Positions 36,753-45,863 of a DNA stretch of 64,000 nt are shown in pieces. How positions within the stretch are numbered: the first letter of the stretch is position 1; each line of letters begins with the position of its first letter. The stretch is from Pontivivens nitratireducens (GTDB lineage Bacteria; Pseudomonadota; Alphaproteobacteria; Rhodobacterales; Rhodobacteraceae), in the NCBI RefSeq assembly GCF_014235845.1, contig NZ_JACJUQ010000010.1:62001-126000 (forward strand), in the 5' to 3' direction. The notes under the pieces are model-generated. The model did not search any database, was not told where the DNA came from, and saw nothing but the letters and a program-made list of their open reading frames with translations. Both the position numbers and the translations under genes were made by a program.

Positions 36753-36771
36753 CAACTTGGAGTGTGTGACC

Positions 36772-37008
36772 ATGGCCAATGACAAGCAGAACCTGCAAGA
36801 TGCCTTCCTCAACAATGTACGCAAGTCAAAAATCCCGGTGACGATCTTCCTCGTCAATGGTGTGAAGTTGCAGGGCGTCATCACCTGGTTCGACAATTTC
36901 TGCGTCTTGCTGCGCCGTGATGGGCAGAGCCAACTGGTCTATAAACATGCTATCTCGACCATCATGCCCTCGCAGCCGGTCAACCTTTATGAGCCGGAAA
37001 CCGACTGA
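36772..37008 (+). CDS. hfq: RNA chaperone Hfq
   Basis: A 78-residue Sm-like protein forming a hexamer that helps small RNAs pair with mRNAs. The Sm1 region is [30 protein letters not shown], and the Sm2 motif is [15 protein letters not shown] start at MANDKQNL with GGAG upstream. The family's conserved core ends near residue 70 and the acidic tail is very short, as in other alphaproteobacteria. hflX follows three bases later. Confidence 0.98.
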
Positions 37009-39514: not shown

Positions 39515-40243
39515 ATGAAGATGGCAAGAGCGCCCCGCCCCCGTCGCCGTACACGGCCCCGTCCCAGCTTCGCTCAACGCTGGCGCGGCAACTTCCTGAC
39601 CGGTCTGGTGGTCGTGGCGCCGATGGCCTTGACGATCTGGCTGATCTGGACGGTCATCACTTTCATCGACGCGAAGGTCGTGCCGCTGGTGCCGGGGATG
39701 TACAACCCCGCGACGTATCTGGGCAACGACGTGCCGGGTTTCGGTGTCATCATCTTTTTGCTGTTCACCGCAGTCATCGGCTATCTGACCAAGGGGCTGG
39801 TCGGGCGATCCGTGCTGCGTTGGGGGGAAAATCTGGTGGAGCGGATGCCCGTCGTCGGCGGCATCTACAATGGTATCAAGCAAATCGCGGAGACGATCCT
39901 GAGCCAGTCTGGCAACTCATTCAAGCAAGCCTGTCTGATCGAATATCCGCGCAAGGGGATCTGGGCCGTGGCCTTCGTCTCGACCGAGACCAAGGGCGAG
40001 GTCATGGAACGCCTGCCCGACGAAGCGTTGATCTCGGTCTTTCTGCCCACCACACCGAATCCGACCAGCGGTTTCCTGTTGTTCGTGCCCCGCAAGGAAA
40101 TGGTGGTGTTGGATATGGATGTCGAGGATGCGGCGAAGCTGATCATCTCCGCCGGGTTGGTCACGCCACCTACCGCAGCGGAAAAGGCAGCTGGCGTGCG
40201 GGTCGCCAATCGCAGGGGTGAACCGGCCAGGCGGATGGCCTGA
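39515..40243 (+). CDS. DUF502-family membrane protein
   Basis: A 242-residue protein with a basic N-terminus (RAPRPRRRTRPRPSFAQRWR) and two membrane helices: FLTGLVVVAPMALTIWLIWT at about 28-47 and GFGVIIFLLFTAVIGYLTKG at about 75-94. The soluble remainder has the family's VERMPVVGGIYNGIKQIAET and NPTSGFLLFVPRKEMVVLDM. DUF502 proteins have no established function. Start at 39515 or the ATG two codons later. It ends convergent with the solute-binding protein gene, 18 bases away. Confidence 0.86.
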   Translation: MKMARAPRPRRRTRPRPSFAQRWRGNFLTGLVVVAPMALTIWLIWTVITFIDAKVVPLVPGMYNPATYLGNDVPGFGVIIFLLFTAVIGYLTKGLVGRSVLRWGENLVERMPVVGGIYNGIKQIAETILSQSGNSFKQACLIEYPRKGIWAVAFVSTETKGEVMERLPDEALISVFLPTTPNPTSGFLLFVPRKEMVVLDMDVEDAAKLIISAGLVTPPTAAEKAAGVRVANRRGEPARRMA

Positions 40244-40261
40244 CCGGAATATCGTCGGGCG

Positions 40262-42049
40262 TCACTCCGCCTCGGACCACCAGACATCCGGCATGAAGCC
40301 GATCCAGTAGCCATAGATCGGCAGGTTGTCCGCAGGATAGTGCAGCTCCGCCTTGTGGGCGACGCGCACCAGCGGCGAATACCAGAACGGGATCGCGTAG
40401 CGCCCCGTTGTCAGCACCCGGTCGAGCGCCCGCACTGCGGATACGAAATCCTCACGCCCGTCGGATGCCAGGATCGCGTCGATCATCGCGTCCACGGCTG
40501 GGCTGTCGATTCCGGCATAGTTCCGCGTGCCCTCCTCGCGCAGTCCATCCGAGCCCCAGTAATTGAACTGCTCGGTTCCCGGCGACAGGGACAGACCCCA
40601 AGTATGCGCGATCATGTCATAGTCGTAGGTGTTCAGTCGCTCTGTATATTGTGCGGAATCCACCAGCGACAGTTCCATCGTGATGCCCAGACGCTGCAAA
40701 GCCTCGGCAAAGATGCCGGTAACAGCCTCGTTGGCGGAGGAGGATAGCAGCATCTCAAACACGAAGGGCTGACCCTCCGCATTGCGCAGAATGCCGTCCT
40801 GCAGCATCCAGCCGGCCTGCTCAAGCAAGTTTTGCGCGGTCCGCAGATTGCGCCGGTTGCGCAGATCGTCTGTCCCCACGGGCAGGCTGTAATCGCTCAG
40901 CACATCCGGGGGCAAGTCGTCGAGGAACGGCGTCAGAAGCGCGACTTCGCGCGGGCCGGCCTCCCCCTCGAACCCCAGAAGGGAATTGTCGAAATAGCTT
41001 TGGATACGCCCCGGCACACCCGCGTTCAGACGCTGGTTGATGAACTCGAAATTGAACGCGTGCAGCAAGGCATCGCGCACGCGGATGTCCGAAAAGAAAG
41101 GCGACCGGGTGTTGAAGACCAGACCGGACATGCCTGCGGGGCGTTCGTGGGTGACCTCGGATTGCACGATCTCGCCCCGCTCCACCGCCGGGAAATCGTA
41201 TTGTTCGACCCACTTCGCCTCATCATATTCGACATAATACGAGGTTTCGCCAGAGGTGAATGCCTGCCAGACGGCCTCCTCATCGCCGAAGAACTCATAG
41301 CGGATCGCGTCCAGATTATGGCGCCCCACGTTAAACCCCAGATCGGCGCCCCAATAATCGGGGTCCCGGTCAAACTGGATGAAGCGGCCGGTGTCGAATT
41401 CGCCGATCGTGTAGGGACCGGACCCGATGAACGGACGCAGGGAGCTTTCGGTGAAATCCAACCCATCCCAATCCGCCTTCTTCAGCACGGGACGCAGGCC
41501 CAGGATCAGGGGCAGCTCGCGGCTTTCCCCGGTCAGGTTGAACCGGACGGAGCGTTCGCCGGTTTGTTCGGAGCTAACCACGCCGTCCCAGGCCGCGCGG
41601 TAGCGGGCATGCCCCTGCTCGCCCATGACCTCGAACGACCACAGGACATCCTCGACCGTGACCGGCGTTCCGTCCGAGAATCGGGCTGCGGGATTGAGGT
41701 GGAATTCGACCCATGTGCGGTCCTCCGCTACCTCAACCGATTCGGCCAGCAACCCGTACAGGGTGAACGGTTCATCATAACTTCTACCCAAAAGCGATTC
41801 CGCCACGTGGGCGCGGGCCCCATAAGGCGCGCTGCCTTTCTGAATGAAGGGGTTGAGGCTGTCGAAGGATCCCCTGGCCCCCTCGACGATGATTCCGCCA
41901 TGCGGTGCTTCGGGGTTCACATAGGGCAAATGCGCAAAATCTGGTGGCAAAGCAGGCTCACCGTACATAGCGATGCCGTGTTGAGGCTCGGCCATGGCTG
42001 TGCTCGCGGTCAAAAGGACCCCTGCGACAACTGAACTTAAACGTGACAT
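40262..42049 (-). CDS. Periplasmic solute-binding protein of peptide ABC transporters (family 5, YejA-like)
   Basis: A 595-residue exported protein. The signal peptide (SSVVAGVLLTASTAMA) is cleaved near residue 21. The mature protein has the family 5 layout: GARGSFDSLNPFIQKGSAPY, WVEFHLNPAARFSDGTPVTV and RVRDALLHAFNFEFINQRLN. Its length and HGIAMYGEPALPPDFAHLPY resemble YejA-type proteins, which bind oligopeptides. No permease or ATPase genes are adjacent, so its transporter partners lie elsewhere or the gene is an orphan. A promoter (42091-42119, minus) is visible upstream. Confidence 0.9.
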   Translation of the reverse strand: MSRLSSVVAGVLLTASTAMAEPQHGIAMYGEPALPPDFAHLPYVNPEAPHGGIIVEGARGSFDSLNPFIQKGSAPYGARAHVAESLLGRSYDEPFTLYGLLAESVEVAEDRTWVEFHLNPAARFSDGTPVTVEDVLWSFEVMGEQGHARYRAAWDGVVSSEQTGERSVRFNLTGESRELPLILGLRPVLKKADWDGLDFTESSLRPFIGSGPYTIGEFDTGRFIQFDRDPDYWGADLGFNVGRHNLDAIRYEFFGDEEAVWQAFTSGETSYYVEYDEAKWVEQYDFPAVERGEIVQSEVTHERPAGMSGLVFNTRSPFFSDIRVRDALLHAFNFEFINQRLNAGVPGRIQSYFDNSLLGFEGEAGPREVALLTPFLDDLPPDVLSDYSLPVGTDDLRNRRNLRTAQNLLEQAGWMLQDGILRNAEGQPFVFEMLLSSSANEAVTGIFAEALQRLGITMELSLVDSAQYTERLNTYDYDMIAHTWGLSLSPGTEQFNYWGSDGLREEGTRNYAGIDSPAVDAMIDAILASDGREDFVSAVRALDRVLTTGRYAIPFWYSPLVRVAHKAELHYPADNLPIYGYWIGFMPDVWWSEAE

Positions 42050-42090
42050 ATCTGCACCATTTACCTGTTTCTTATGGGTTAATTCAGATC

Positions 42091-42119
42091 ATCCTACCCG
42101 GCCAGATACCACCCCACAA
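42091..42119 (-). promoter_or_regulatory. Candidate promoter of the solute-binding protein gene
   Basis: On the minus strand, TTGTGG (42114-42119) and TAGGAT (42091-42096) are 17 bases apart. Transcription would start near 42084, about 35 bases before the start codon. Confidence 0.4.
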
Positions 42120-42129
42120 AAAATTATCT

Positions 42130-42158
42130 TTGTCACGGGCGATCGGGATCCCTATATT
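42130..42158 (+). promoter_or_regulatory. Strong candidate sigma-70 promoter of the small RNA
   Basis: TTGTCA (42130-42135), exactly 17 bases, TATATT (42153-42158). Both boxes are close to consensus. The expected transcript start is near 42165. Confidence 0.65.
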
Positions 42159-42164
42159 AAGGGC

Positions 42165-42239
42165 ACTGCTCGATAGGTTTCTTGCCTGTATGAAACCTGC
42201 CTCAACACTTGCCCCCTCGCTTGCGAGGGGGTTTTTTTT
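42165..42239 (+). ncRNA. Candidate small RNA (about 75 nt, two stem-loops)
   Basis: Between a good promoter and a strong terminator lies a compact unit. Stem-loop 1 is AGGTTTC (42175-42181), a 10-base loop, GAAACCT (42192-42198). A short single-stranded linker follows (GCCTCAACACTTG), then stem-loop 2, which is the terminator (42212-42239). It lies in a divergent intergenic region where neither neighbour ends, so the terminator needs its own transcript. It may be a free small RNA or a terminated leader of the downstream dehydrogenase gene. A reading frame starting at ATG 42190 runs through the terminator and is not a convincing leader peptide. I do not recognise the RNA family. Confidence 0.6.
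42212..42239 (+). terminator. Orphan intrinsic terminator
   Basis: CCCCCTCG, loop CTTG, CGAGGGGG, then eight T: a perfect 8-base stem and an ideal T tract. It is oriented with 3-hydroxybutyrate dehydrogenase but lies 155 bases upstream of its start. Confidence 0.9.
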
Positions 42240-42394
42240 GGTCCGGCGGTCCGGGACAGCTTATTCCCACATTCGCGTTCGATTTGGCAGCGGGCGTGCC
42301 CGCAGTCCCAAGCGCAAAATTACCGTCGCAAGGTGGTCTTCGCGTTTGCAGCATATACATAAAGAACCAGCATTCATTTCAGAGGAACCAGCCC

Positions 42395-43180
42395 ATGTCC
42401 GTCAAAGACAAAGTCGCTATCGTCACCGGCTCCAATTCCGGCATTGGATTGGGCATAGCGGAGGAACTGGCCCGTCTGGGCGCGCGTGTTGTCCTCAACT
42501 CCTTTACCGACAGTGAAGAAGATCACGCCCTGGCCGAGAGGATCGGTGCGGAGCACGGCACCGACGTGATCTACATTTCCGCCGATATGTCGGATGGTGA
42601 AGCCTGCCGCAATCTGGTTGAGAAAGCCGCCGAGCATTTCGGTCATGTGGACATCCTGATCAACAATGCCGGCATTCAGCACGTCGCGGGCATCGACGAA
42701 TTTCCCGTGGCAAAATGGGATGCGATCATTGCCATCAACCTGTCCAGCTCGTTCCACACGACCGCGACTGCATTGCCATTGATGCGCAAGCAGGGATGGG
42801 GCCGCGTGGTCAATATCGCATCCGCGCACGGTCTGACCGCTTCGCCCTACAAGTCTGCATATGTGGCGGCAAAGCACGGTGTCGTCGGCTTGACCAAGGT
42901 GACGGCGCTGGAAACCGCGCAGGAGCCGATCACCGCGAATGCCATTTGTCCCGGCTATGTCATGACGCCGCTGGTCGAAAAGCAAATCCCCGAGACAATG
43001 GAGAAATACGGCATGGACCGCGATACCGCGATCAAGGAGGTCCTGCTGGACCGCCAGCCGTCCAAGGAGTTCGCCACCGTCGGCCAGATCGGCGGGACGG
43101 TCGCGTTCCTGTGCTCGGACGCGGCGGAGCAGATCACCGGCACCACGATCAGCGTCGATGGTGGCTGGACTGCGCTCTGA
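42395..43180 (+). CDS. bdhA: 3-hydroxybutyrate dehydrogenase (short-chain dehydrogenase)
   Basis: A 261-residue NAD-dependent SDR enzyme oxidising D-3-hydroxybutyrate to acetoacetate, a step in using polyhydroxybutyrate. Cofactor motif TGSNSGIGLGIA (12-23), NNAGIQH, catalytic serine in NIASAHG and YxxxK in SAYVAAKHG. The segment GYVMTPLVEKQIPETMEKYG and terminal DGGWTAL are typical of this enzyme rather than of general SDRs. AGAGGAA precedes the ATG. The upstream terminated unit (42165-42239) may modulate its transcription. It precedes a patatin gene, 69 bases on. Confidence 0.92.
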   Translation: MSVKDKVAIVTGSNSGIGLGIAEELARLGARVVLNSFTDSEEDHALAERIGAEHGTDVIYISADMSDGEACRNLVEKAAEHFGHVDILINNAGIQHVAGIDEFPVAKWDAIIAINLSSSFHTTATALPLMRKQGWGRVVNIASAHGLTASPYKSAYVAAKHGVVGLTKVTALETAQEPITANAICPGYVMTPLVEKQIPETMEKYGMDRDTAIKEVLLDRQPSKEFATVGQIGGTVAFLCSDAAEQITGTTISVDGGWTAL

Positions 43181-43192
43181 TCGCTGAGGCAT

Positions 43193-43240
43193 CGCCGGGG
43201 GCAGCGGCCTCCGGCGGGGATATTTGAAGACAGAAGAAAG
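43193..43240 (+). repeat. Gene-end repeat element, copy A
   Basis: A hairpin (CGCCGG at 43193-43198 with CCGGCG at 43211-43216) leads into CTCCGGCGGG + GATATTTGAA (core 43208-43228) and GACAGAAGAAAG. The 21-base core matches copy B (56683-56703, minus) at 20 positions. Both copies begin 10-30 bases after a stop codon in the same orientation. From memory, similar sequences recur at gene ends in Rhodobacterales genomes. Here it also reaches to 10 bases before the patatin ATG. Confidence 0.6.
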
Positions 43241-43249
43241 CGGGCCGCG

Positions 43250-44272
43250 ATGGTCAAGACAATCAACATGGCCTTGCAGGGTGGCGGGGCACACGGCGCG
43301 CTGACATGGGGCGTTCTGGACCGCCTGCTCGAAGAAGAGCGGTTGGAGATCGAGGGCATCACCGCCACCTCCGCCGGTGCGATGAACGCGGCCGCGCTGA
43401 AATGCGGCTGGGTCGAGGATGGACGCGATGGCGCGCGCAAGCATCTGTCGACGTTCTGGAATGCGGTTGCGAAGCGCAGCCCGTCCTCCCACCCCATAAA
43501 CAAGTGGTTGCAGGTCGTGAACCCGGCTCTGGGTATGGCGTTGACCGCATTCGAATCCGGGCCCGGATATTTCGCCGGTGAGACGATGACCCGGATCTTT
43601 TCCCCGTATGATTTCAACCCACTGAACTACCACCCCTTGCGCGATCTGATAGGGGATCTGGACTTCGCCACGATGGATGAACCGGTGGGGCCCAAGCTGT
43701 TCATCTGCGCCACGAATGTGCGCAGCGGCAAGATCAAGGTGTTTGAGAGGGAGGAGATCACGACCGATGCCATCCTCGCCTCCGCCTGTCTGCCAACGTT
43801 GTTTCAGGCGATCGAAATCGACGGTGAGGCCTATTGGGACGGCGGTTATACTGGCAATCCGGCGCTGTTCCCGCTGTTTTACGAGACGAATTCGCGCGAT
43901 ATCGTCATCGTTCATATCAACCCGATCGAGCGAGAGGAGGTGCCGGTGCGGGCCTCCGACATTCTGAACCGGATCAACGAGATCTCGTTCAATTCCTCGT
44001 TGCTGCGGGAACTGCGCAATATCGAGTTGATCAAGAGGTTGATCGAGGGCGGAACCCTGACAGGAACGCGGTACAAGGACCTTCTGATCCATTCGATCCG
44101 CGATGACGACACCATGTCCGACATGGGCATCGCGTCGAAGCTGCAACCCAGTATGCGTGTGCTGCAAAATCTGCACGACAAGGGTTATGCCGCTGCGGAT
44201 ACGTTCCTTCAGGAAAACTGGGGTAATCTGGGCGAACGGTCCAGTGTCGATCTGCGCGCCATGTTCGAATGA
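43250..44272 (+). CDS. Patatin-like phospholipase family protein
   Basis: A 340-residue patatin-fold acyl hydrolase. The oxyanion loop GGGAHG is at residues 11-16, the nucleophile S41 is in ITATSAGAMN (A replaces the first G of GxSxG), and the catalytic aspartate D197 is in YWDGGYTGNP, so the Ser-Asp dyad is complete. There is no signal peptide. It follows bdhA in the same direction, so an intracellular lipid or storage-polymer substrate is plausible; patatin relatives act as PHB depolymerases in some bacteria, but I cannot assign that here. Confidence 0.9.
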   Translation: MVKTINMALQGGGAHGALTWGVLDRLLEEERLEIEGITATSAGAMNAAALKCGWVEDGRDGARKHLSTFWNAVAKRSPSSHPINKWLQVVNPALGMALTAFESGPGYFAGETMTRIFSPYDFNPLNYHPLRDLIGDLDFATMDEPVGPKLFICATNVRSGKIKVFEREEITTDAILASACLPTLFQAIEIDGEAYWDGGYTGNPALFPLFYETNSRDIVIVHINPIEREEVPVRASDILNRINEISFNSSLLRELRNIELIKRLIEGGTLTGTRYKDLLIHSIRDDDTMSDMGIASKLQPSMRVLQNLHDKGYAAADTFLQENWGNLGERSSVDLRAMFE

Positions 44273-44293
44273 TCGGGTGAGCCGTAGGCGTGC

Positions 44294-44329
44294 CGTGCCA
44301 TCGCCGGGGCTTGGCACGAAAGGCGATGG
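44294..44329 (+). repeat. Two overlapping, mutually exclusive hairpins
   Basis: CGTGCCA (44294-44300) pairs with TGGCACG (44312-44318), and CCATCGCC (44298-44305) pairs with GGCGATGG (44322-44329). The first arms overlap, so only one stem can form at a time. They lie in the 88-base gap between the patatin gene and the acyl-CoA ligase gene. Confidence 0.4.
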
Positions 44330-44360
44330 ACGGGCCGGGCGTGACATGGGATGAGGTGAC

Positions 44361-45863
44361 ATGCTCTCGATCCACCAAGACACCCCGCCCCCCTGCCCCG
44401 ACCGGTTCAACATGGCTGAATACGTCATGCAGGCAGGTCGCTCCACCCCGCAGCGCACCGCACTGGAGGTGATCGGTTCCCCCGTTGAGGTGCTGGAACG
44501 GTGGAGCTTCGCGCAACTCGATGCGACCATCGCCGCCGTTGCGGGAGGGCTGGCCGCACAGGGGTTGCAACCGGGGCAGCGGGTCGGGCTGCGGCTGGGC
44601 AATACGATGGATTTCCCGCTGGTCTTCTTCGGGGCGCAGCGGTTGGGAGCGGTTCCGATCGCGATCTCCTCGCAGCTTGGCGTGAAGGAACTGGGGCCTC
44701 TGCTCGCCCTGACCCGCCCCGACATGATCGTTCGCGATCCCGCACTGGACCTGCCGCAGACGGATGCGGTGGTGGTGGAGGATCTGGCGGCATTGCGCGA
44801 TCACGCGCCCGCCCCCCTGTTCGATACGGCAGCGGACGATCCCGCCTATATCGTGTTTACCTCCGGCTCCTCCGGCACGGCGAAGGCTGTGGTTCATGCA
44901 CATCGTGCGGCACATGCCCGGCGGATGATGTGGCCCGGTTGGTATGAGTTGGAGGCCATGGACAGGGTGCTGCACGCCGGCGCATTCAACTGGACATTTA
45001 CCCTCGGCACCGGATTGACGGATCCGTGGGCAGCCGGTGCACAGGCCCTGATCCATGTCGGAGAGGCCGGTTCGGACACGCATCGCGCGCTGATCGCCGC
45101 ACACCGGCCCACACTCTTTGCCGCCGTTCCGGGCATCTTCCGTCGCATTCTGAAATCGGATGCCGATCTGAAGTCAGCCTTTCAGGGCCTGCGTCATGCC
45201 CTGTGCGCCGGTGAGACATTGCCCGCGTCCCTGCGAGCGGAGTGGCGGGACCGCACGGGGACGGAGCTTCACGAGGCGTTCGGAATGTCGGAGATCTCGA
45301 CCTTTATCTCGTCCTCTCCCTCTCACCCCGCGCCGGTGGGCACGATAGGTTGGGTGCAGGACGGCCGGCAGGTCGCGGTTTTGGGTGCGGATCAGCCCGT
45401 GCCGCGCGGCACGCCGGGGGAATTGTCGGTGCATCGCAGTGAACCCGGCCTGATGCTGGGCTATCTGAACGGGGAGCCTCTGCCAGAATGGTTTCGCACC
45501 GGCGATCAAGTGGTGATGGAGGAGTCCGGCGCTGTGCGGTATCTGGGTCGGCTCGACGATCTGATGACGGCGAACGGCTATCGTGTCTCACCGTTGGAGG
45601 TGGAGGCCGCAATGCTCACCTGCACCGGCGTGCGTGAGGTCGGCGTTTGCGAAGTCTCTCCCAAGCCGGGGGTGCGGATCATTGCGGCCTTCTATACCGG
45701 GGACGCCAACCCGGCAGAGGTGATGGCCGAATTGGCCGGATCACTTGCAACGTACAAGATGCCGAAACATATCCAGCCTATTCCCGACCTGCCGCGCGGC
45801 CCCACGGGCAAGGTCAAGAGATCCGCCCTGCCCGACCTCTACATCGCCGAGGAGCGTTCATGA
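44361..45863 (+). CDS. AMP-forming acyl-CoA ligase (benzoate-CoA ligase-like)
   Basis: A 500-residue adenylate-forming enzyme (ANL superfamily) that activates a carboxylate with ATP and joins it to CoA. The P-loop motif is YIVFTSGSSGTAKAVVHAH, the A5 motif is HEAFGMSEIS, A8 is YLGRLDDLMTANGYRVSP and the catalytic lysine is in RGPTGKVKRSAL. The N-terminal DRFNMAEYVM is typical of the benzoate/acyl-CoA ligase branch. The exact acid is unknown. It ends in a four-base overlap with the DsbA-like gene, so the two are translationally coupled. Confidence 0.88.
   Translation: MLSIHQDTPPPCPDRFNMAEYVMQAGRSTPQRTALEVIGSPVEVLERWSFAQLDATIAAVAGGLAAQGLQPGQRVGLRLGNTMDFPLVFFGAQRLGAVPIAISSQLGVKELGPLLALTRPDMIVRDPALDLPQTDAVVVEDLAALRDHAPAPLFDTAADDPAYIVFTSGSSGTAKAVVHAHRAAHARRMMWPGWYELEAMDRVLHAGAFNWTFTLGTGLTDPWAAGAQALIHVGEAGSDTHRALIAAHRPTLFAAVPGIFRRILKSDADLKSAFQGLRHALCAGETLPASLRAEWRDRTGTELHEAFGMSEISTFISSSPSHPAPVGTIGWVQDGRQVAVLGADQPVPRGTPGELSVHRSEPGLMLGYLNGEPLPEWFRTGDQVVMEESGAVRYLGRLDDLMTANGYRVSPLEVEAAMLTCTGVREVGVCEVSPKPGVRIIAAFYTGDANPAEVMAELAGSLATYKMPKHIQPIPDLPRGPTGKVKRSALPDLYIAEERS

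Follow-up and report, generated by a model that had tools for sequence, protein, structure and literature searches.

The window analyzed here (the whole stretch of 64,000 nt) contains two divergent genes that start at 42049 (minus strand) and at 42395 (plus strand). A sequence-only reading had placed between them a pair of promoter boxes followed by a 7-bp hairpin, a linker and, with eight T behind it, an 8-bp terminator stem, at a site where neither neighbouring gene ends. All of these elements are present at 42130–42239, and both neighbouring genes indeed start, divergently, on either side of them (Table 1). The −35 and −10 boxes are separated by a 17-nt spacer. The arms of hairpin 1 are AGGTTTC (42175–42181) and GAAACCT (42192–42198), enclosing a loop at 42182–42191, and the terminator is made up of the arms CCCCCTCG (42212–42219) and CGAGGGGG (42224–42231), a CTTG loop and eight T (42232–42239). 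The RNA is encoded in a single copy in its own genome.

Table 1. Features of the small RNA locus and of its pairing with the mraZ leader of the same genome (L177).
Feature	Position in window	Strand	Partner position	Evidence or remark
AT-rich stretch 5′ of the −35 box		42120–42129	+		corresponds to the conserved AACTTTTAGC of relatives; column counts (145 loci) and alignments
−35 box, TTGTCA	42130–42135	+		mostly TTGGA/TTGGC in relatives
−10 box, TATATT	42153–42158	+		mostly TATAAA in relatives
Predicted small RNA, 75 nt, probable StsR orthologue	42165–42239	+		abrupt start of invariance at 42165; covariance model, 91.5 bits
Invariant 40-nt block, nt 1–40	42165–42204	+		column counts, 145 loci
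Hairpin 1, 7-bp stem with 10-nt loop TTGCCTGTAT	42175–42198	+		fold, covariation
nt 17–29, 13-bp Watson-Crick pairing with own mraZ leader	42181–42193	+	L177:1051–1063	
nt 33–37, further 5 bp with own mraZ leader	42197–42201	+	L177:1043–1047	
Intrinsic terminator, 8-bp stem and eight T	42212–42239	+		fold, scans, paired changes
GCGTTTGCAGCAT, motif of the bdhA side, not of the RNA	42342–42354	+		recurrence in gaps before bdhA

A DNA search recovered the small RNA stretch from 36 of 37 sampled genomes of the family and from none of the 24 genomes of other families, and on the strength of this comparison we regard the small RNA gene as certain. Of 394 family genomes, 384 contain it (345 of the 347 of good quality), and so do 120 of 121 genomes sampled from the Paracoccus aminovorans genus. 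At least 118 stretches lie in named genomes, including Ruegeria, Leisingera, Sulfitobacter, Paracoccus, Cereibacter flavus and Neomegalonema. In a covariance-model search of 240 genomes of the class, scores of 91.5 to 104 bits were reached by three family members, and outside the family only four weak matches (28–31 bits) were obtained, which we treat as chance. Two matches each were seen in G157, G200, G208, G278, G295, G355 and G377, reflecting either true duplicates or assembly effects.

The first 40 nt of the RNA are nearly invariant. Where both flanks were complete (145 loci), 39 of the 40 positions are identical in every locus, and nt 19 is identical in 144. For 118 loci, nt 11–40 except nt 19 were part of the pattern by which the loci were selected; nt 1–10 lay outside that pattern and were unchanged in 145 of 145 loci. 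The same block was observed in the loci found by similarity (best 30 of 36), and Cereibacter flavus (L120), the named genome nearest to Rhodobacter sphaeroides, carries it in full. Invariance starts sharply at 42165 and stops past 42204, with conservation dropping on both flanks; it applies to the loci fetched rather than to every copy, and some family copies score weakly (e.g. G032 with 78% identity, G416 with E 1.6e-4). The predicted RNA length is 71–81 nt (147 loci with a readable T-run).

Promoter and stems are likewise conserved in relatives, as the sequence-only reading had required. The core columns of the −35 box are T in 145, T in 132 and G in 140 of 145 loci, and the first four columns of the −10 box are T, A, T and A in 142, 143, 138 and 134 loci, respectively. 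That reading had called for compensatory changes in both stems. They are seen in the terminator, where 7 of 8 predicted pairs have changes on both sides, whereas the pairs of hairpin 1 never vary among the loci compared and so can show none. A predicted small RNA gene with its own promoter and terminator is thus borne out by fold, conservation and promoter columns.

Three other readings of the locus were weighed. Scans for promoter-like words (2 vs. 1.7 expected) and terminator-like words (5 vs. 3.9 expected) in positions 40000–45000 give chance level when taken alone, as would be the case if such words had fallen together by accident. That reading is refuted by conservation and is scarcely credible: the segment 42165–42240 folds at −26.7 kcal/mol (z −4.05; none of 200 shuffles was equally stable), and the presence of the RNA throughout the family and the paired changes of its terminator are left without an account. 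A search of the whole window against Rfam yielded no match at the gathering threshold. The top match, RF00519 (27.4 bits, E 0.001 in a 421-base search; gathering score 41 bits), would make the RNA a member of the mmgR/suhB family of polyhydroxybutyrate granule regulators, in keeping with its bdhA neighbour. The locus has the general layout of these small alphaproteobacterial RNAs, with a 5′ hairpin, a linker and a strong terminator, but the core sequence differs, the CCUCCCU motif of the model consensus was not seen, and U-tract terminators inflate such scores. Membership in this family is very unlikely. Because no Rfam family covers the small RNA, annotation pipelines based on Rfam miss it.

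The sequence-only reading had also offered a terminated leader of bdhA (3-hydroxybutyrate dehydrogenase; TIGR01963, 369 bits over a cut-off of 307), in which the hairpins would gate transcription into that gene. In line with such an attenuator, bdhA follows the RNA in the same orientation at 106 of 132 loci, with a median gap of 124 nt, and a gap of only 38 nt in L008 and L071 leaves little room for a separate promoter. However, 26 of the 132 loci keep the RNA, with its 40-nt block unchanged, where bdhA is absent within 1.5 kb, and the RNA is therefore not confined to bdhA leaders. In addition, the gap has a motif of its own. A GCA-N-GCAGCAT-like motif, picked after viewing the gaps and controlled with single-base shuffles, occurs before bdhA in a strict form in 46 of 111 gaps (0.1 in shuffles) and in a loose form in 85 of 111 (13.8 in shuffles), but in loci without bdhA the strict form is found in 0 of 28 and the loose form in 8 of 28. 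In the window it is represented by GCGTTTGCAGCAT, and we take it to resemble the GCA-rich operators of PhaR, the regulator of polyhydroxybutyrate genes. The presence of this motif in front of bdhA suggests that the gene most likely has its own control region. Read-through into bdhA may occur, above all in the two loci with the 38-nt gap. An attenuator would also leave the complementarity to the mraZ leader (see below) unexplained, and we consider it quite unlikely as the function of this RNA.

The gene on the other side encodes a solute-binding protein; at 133 of 140 loci it is present and points away from the RNA. It is absent in seven, including two of three Neomegalonema loci, and the 40-nt block is unchanged there. 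Past bdhA, a patatin-like protein is encoded at 43250–44272 of the window, with weak NCBIfam matches far under their cut-offs, and a patatin-like gene follows the RNA in 35 of the 73 loci with enough sequence. A small protein starting from the ATG at 42190 was discarded upon inspection by eye: the frame stops after MKPAS or MKPASIT in many relatives, it runs through the terminator in the window, and no ribosome site is evident. About 5 kb from the small RNA, directly upstream of hflX, an 83-aa frame (36757–37008) presumably encodes an Hfq-like protein.

Published work on the small RNAs of this family pointed to StsR (formerly RSs0827) and UpsM, as described in passages of PMC8307010, PMC8625941 and PMC5089854. 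There, StsR is a 72-nt RNA of Rhodobacter sphaeroides, controlled by RpoHI/HII and bound by Hfq; its binding partners are UpsM and the dcw 5′ UTR, and it promotes cleavage by RNase E (PMC8307010). It is termed an orphan small RNA and also alters read-through into the dcw genes (PMC8625941). UpsM is presented as the mraZ leader in its terminated form, a feature particular to Rhodobacteraceae (PMC5089854). A literature search with the letters of the RNA itself returned no 14-nt string among the matches listed, and one on the neighbours of RSP_0827 returned nothing relevant.

The 40-nt block was compared with the mraZ leader, taken as the 700 nt before the MraZ match; mraZ is the first gene of the division and cell-wall (dcw) cluster. 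The longest contiguous Watson-Crick match was 11–19 nt in 23 of 26 family leaders, which are not independent (five of the 26 or more come from the same genera), and at most 9 nt in 11 of 11 leaders from other families. With G-U pairs allowed, the same 23 leaders gave 12–19 nt, and those of other families at most 12. The three family leaders without a long match are L170, L174 and L172, and the contig of the latter starts just before mraZ. The typical site is CAGGTTTCATACAGGCA, and in 21 of 24 leaders a strong hairpin with a T-rich tail follows 99–111 nt (about 105) past it. This order of site and hairpin is the layout given for UpsM in PMC5089854. The complementarity and the leader architecture, like the gene, its structure and its conservation, are direct results of computation.

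Nine further carriers of the RNA, several with unusual neighbourhoods, have 12–19 contiguous pairs with their mraZ leaders when G-U pairs are allowed, and only three of these exceed all 100 shuffles. The same 40-nt block is present in Neomegalonema (L045, L107 and L115); two mraZ leaders of this group have 18–19-nt matches with one G-U pair, located at another part of the block. The 12-mer TTTCATACAGGC of the site has, apart from the RNA gene and the mraZ leader, no place common to most genomes, and extra, unannotated matches occur in G006, G010, G011, G012 and G016.

In the genome from which the window comes, the mraZ leader (L177, on contig G000:C22) pairs with the RNA in two segments (Table 1). 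The duplex of nt 17–37 with L177:1043–1063 has −30.9 kcal/mol, and among 397 window stretches of 240 nt drawn at random none was as good. Match length alone is unexceptional in this leader (13 nt vs. a maximum of 14 in 60 shuffles), and the duplex energy of the whole RNA with it was reached by 5 of 200 shuffles; the position of the site, which is the same as in relatives, is the stronger argument. Within the leader the site is predicted to be partly paired, with six bases exposed. Past the leader hairpin (−26.9 kcal/mol, z −4.0) comes TTTCTATT, and the hairpin ends about 48 nt short of the GTG start codon of mraZ. Segment L177:1043–1240 thus has the appearance of an UpsM-like leader, with the pairing site, a strong hairpin with a T-rich tail, and mraZ with a GTG start. 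Since the leader of this genus pairs with part of the block and the block itself is complete, further partners of the small RNA are likely.

The 5′ end of the RNA finds matches farther down the leader. At least 7 bases complementary to it lie within 60 nt downstream of the site in 17 of 25 leaders. In 12 of 26 leaders, 7 of these 12 from one genus, the rising arm of the leader hairpin contains a 10-nt complement of nt 1–10 with G-U pairs allowed, and in 4 of the 12 the complement is fully Watson-Crick. The mean longest match of nt 1–10 in the arm was 8.0 vs. 5.55 in shuffled sequences, and none of 300 shuffles reached this value; nine of 35 leaders were left out of the arm analysis (L170, L172, L173, L174, L229, L232, L233, L235 and L237). 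The rising arms of L184, L187, L189 and L231 contain ATCGAGCAGT, which complements nt 1–10 of the RNA exactly. In the genome of the window the match of nt 1–10 is 9 nt long and falls in the hairpin loop. The CGAGCAG site and the matches in the terminator arm therefore provide two candidate places for the 5′ end of the RNA. A tentative extension, which we hold to be possible but on balance doubtful, is that StsR acts as a core regulator throughout the family and contacts the dcw leader at two or three sites, with nt 1–10 invading the rising arm of the leader's own terminator, and that this single RNA could switch both cleavage and termination of the division-gene transcript in trans. Terminator invasion of this kind may already be described in the main StsR publication.

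The sequence-only reading had called the RNA uncharacterised. Its pairing with the mraZ/dcw leader, its size, its orphan status and its distribution point instead to StsR. We conclude with good confidence that the small RNA is an StsR orthologue that pairs with the dcw leader, because pairing with the mraZ leader is the published relationship between StsR and UpsM of Rhodobacter sphaeroides; the computed complementarity to the dcw 5′ UTR appears to be of this kind, and StsR was compared by description rather than letter by letter. The RNA could instead be an independent one that only resembles StsR, or one that pairs with the mraZ leader while chiefly serving other mRNAs. The leader of its own genome pairs with only nt 17–29 and 33–37, yet all 40 nt are kept, and the likeness to StsR is one of description; both points speak for such an RNA. 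Its size, its lack of a host gene as an orphan, its occurrence as one copy per genome here and a target in the dcw leader, however, all agree with StsR, and the 12-mer TTTCATACAGGC, extra matches in five genomes aside, has no further site common to most genomes. Either possibility is hence unlikely. StsR is a stress-induced RNA, and rpoE is its second known target. A search for ChrR, used as a proxy for the rpoE target, gave no match over the cut-off in the seven genomes searched from the Cereibacter flavus genus.

As an StsR orthologue, the RNA would be a free-standing, trans-acting molecule of ∼75 nt. Its nt 17–39 would pair with the leader site ∼105 nt ahead of the terminator-like hairpin, and its 5′ end would pair farther downstream. 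By analogy with R. sphaeroides, pairing would remodel the dcw leader and expose it to RNase E, and the expression of division genes would be lowered under stress and in stationary phase. Expression of the RNA in this organism, its control by RpoHI/HII, its binding to Hfq, cleavage by RNase E and the direction of the effect would all follow the same analogy. The Hfq dependence that had been thought plausible for the RNA is indeed plausible, given the reported binding of StsR to Hfq (PMC8307010). The conserved TTG and TATA columns fit the RpoH logos in PMC3441632 but also sigma-70.

StsR is already published, and what is added here is (i) its near-universality in the family; (ii) its extreme conservation; and (iii) the frequent match between its 5′ end and the rising arm of the leader hairpin. 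The StsR passages cited mention neither its extent across the family nor how strongly it is conserved, and no priority is claimed. An unexplained block of promoter, hairpin and terminator can now be read as a probable named regulator whose target can be tested. It is unusual for a small RNA that is not of the housekeeping set to keep a 40-nt block nearly unchanged over nearly 400 genera. In the genus of the window the leader has drifted and the RNA has not, a natural experiment that points to further partners. The RNA would link stress signals with cell division across a large and ecologically important family that includes the marine roseobacters.

Among known systems, Intergenic 60 of Paracoccus denitrificans is an intergenic RNA of 80 nt that heads Table 1 of PMC5107571 in number of reads; it is described there as conserved in many Rhodobacteraceae and is also reported from Sphingomonadales. 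It is likened to the small RNA by description, a comparison by position did not link the two, and it serves as a lead only. UpsM, the dcw 5′ UTR, differs from the feature at 42130–42240 in being the target and in being encoded elsewhere (G000:C22); the presumed partner, a long mraZ leader with a terminator-like hairpin, is present in the genome of the window (L177). The pairing differs from that of StsR in relatives in that the leader site is shorter in this genus than in most of them. Like StsR, the small RNA is an orphan of similar size (72 nt reported vs. 75 nt predicted here) with its own terminator, its putative target lies in the mraZ/dcw leader (UpsM), its −35 box is of the TTG type seen in RpoH but also in sigma-70 promoters, and Hfq is probably present in the organism.
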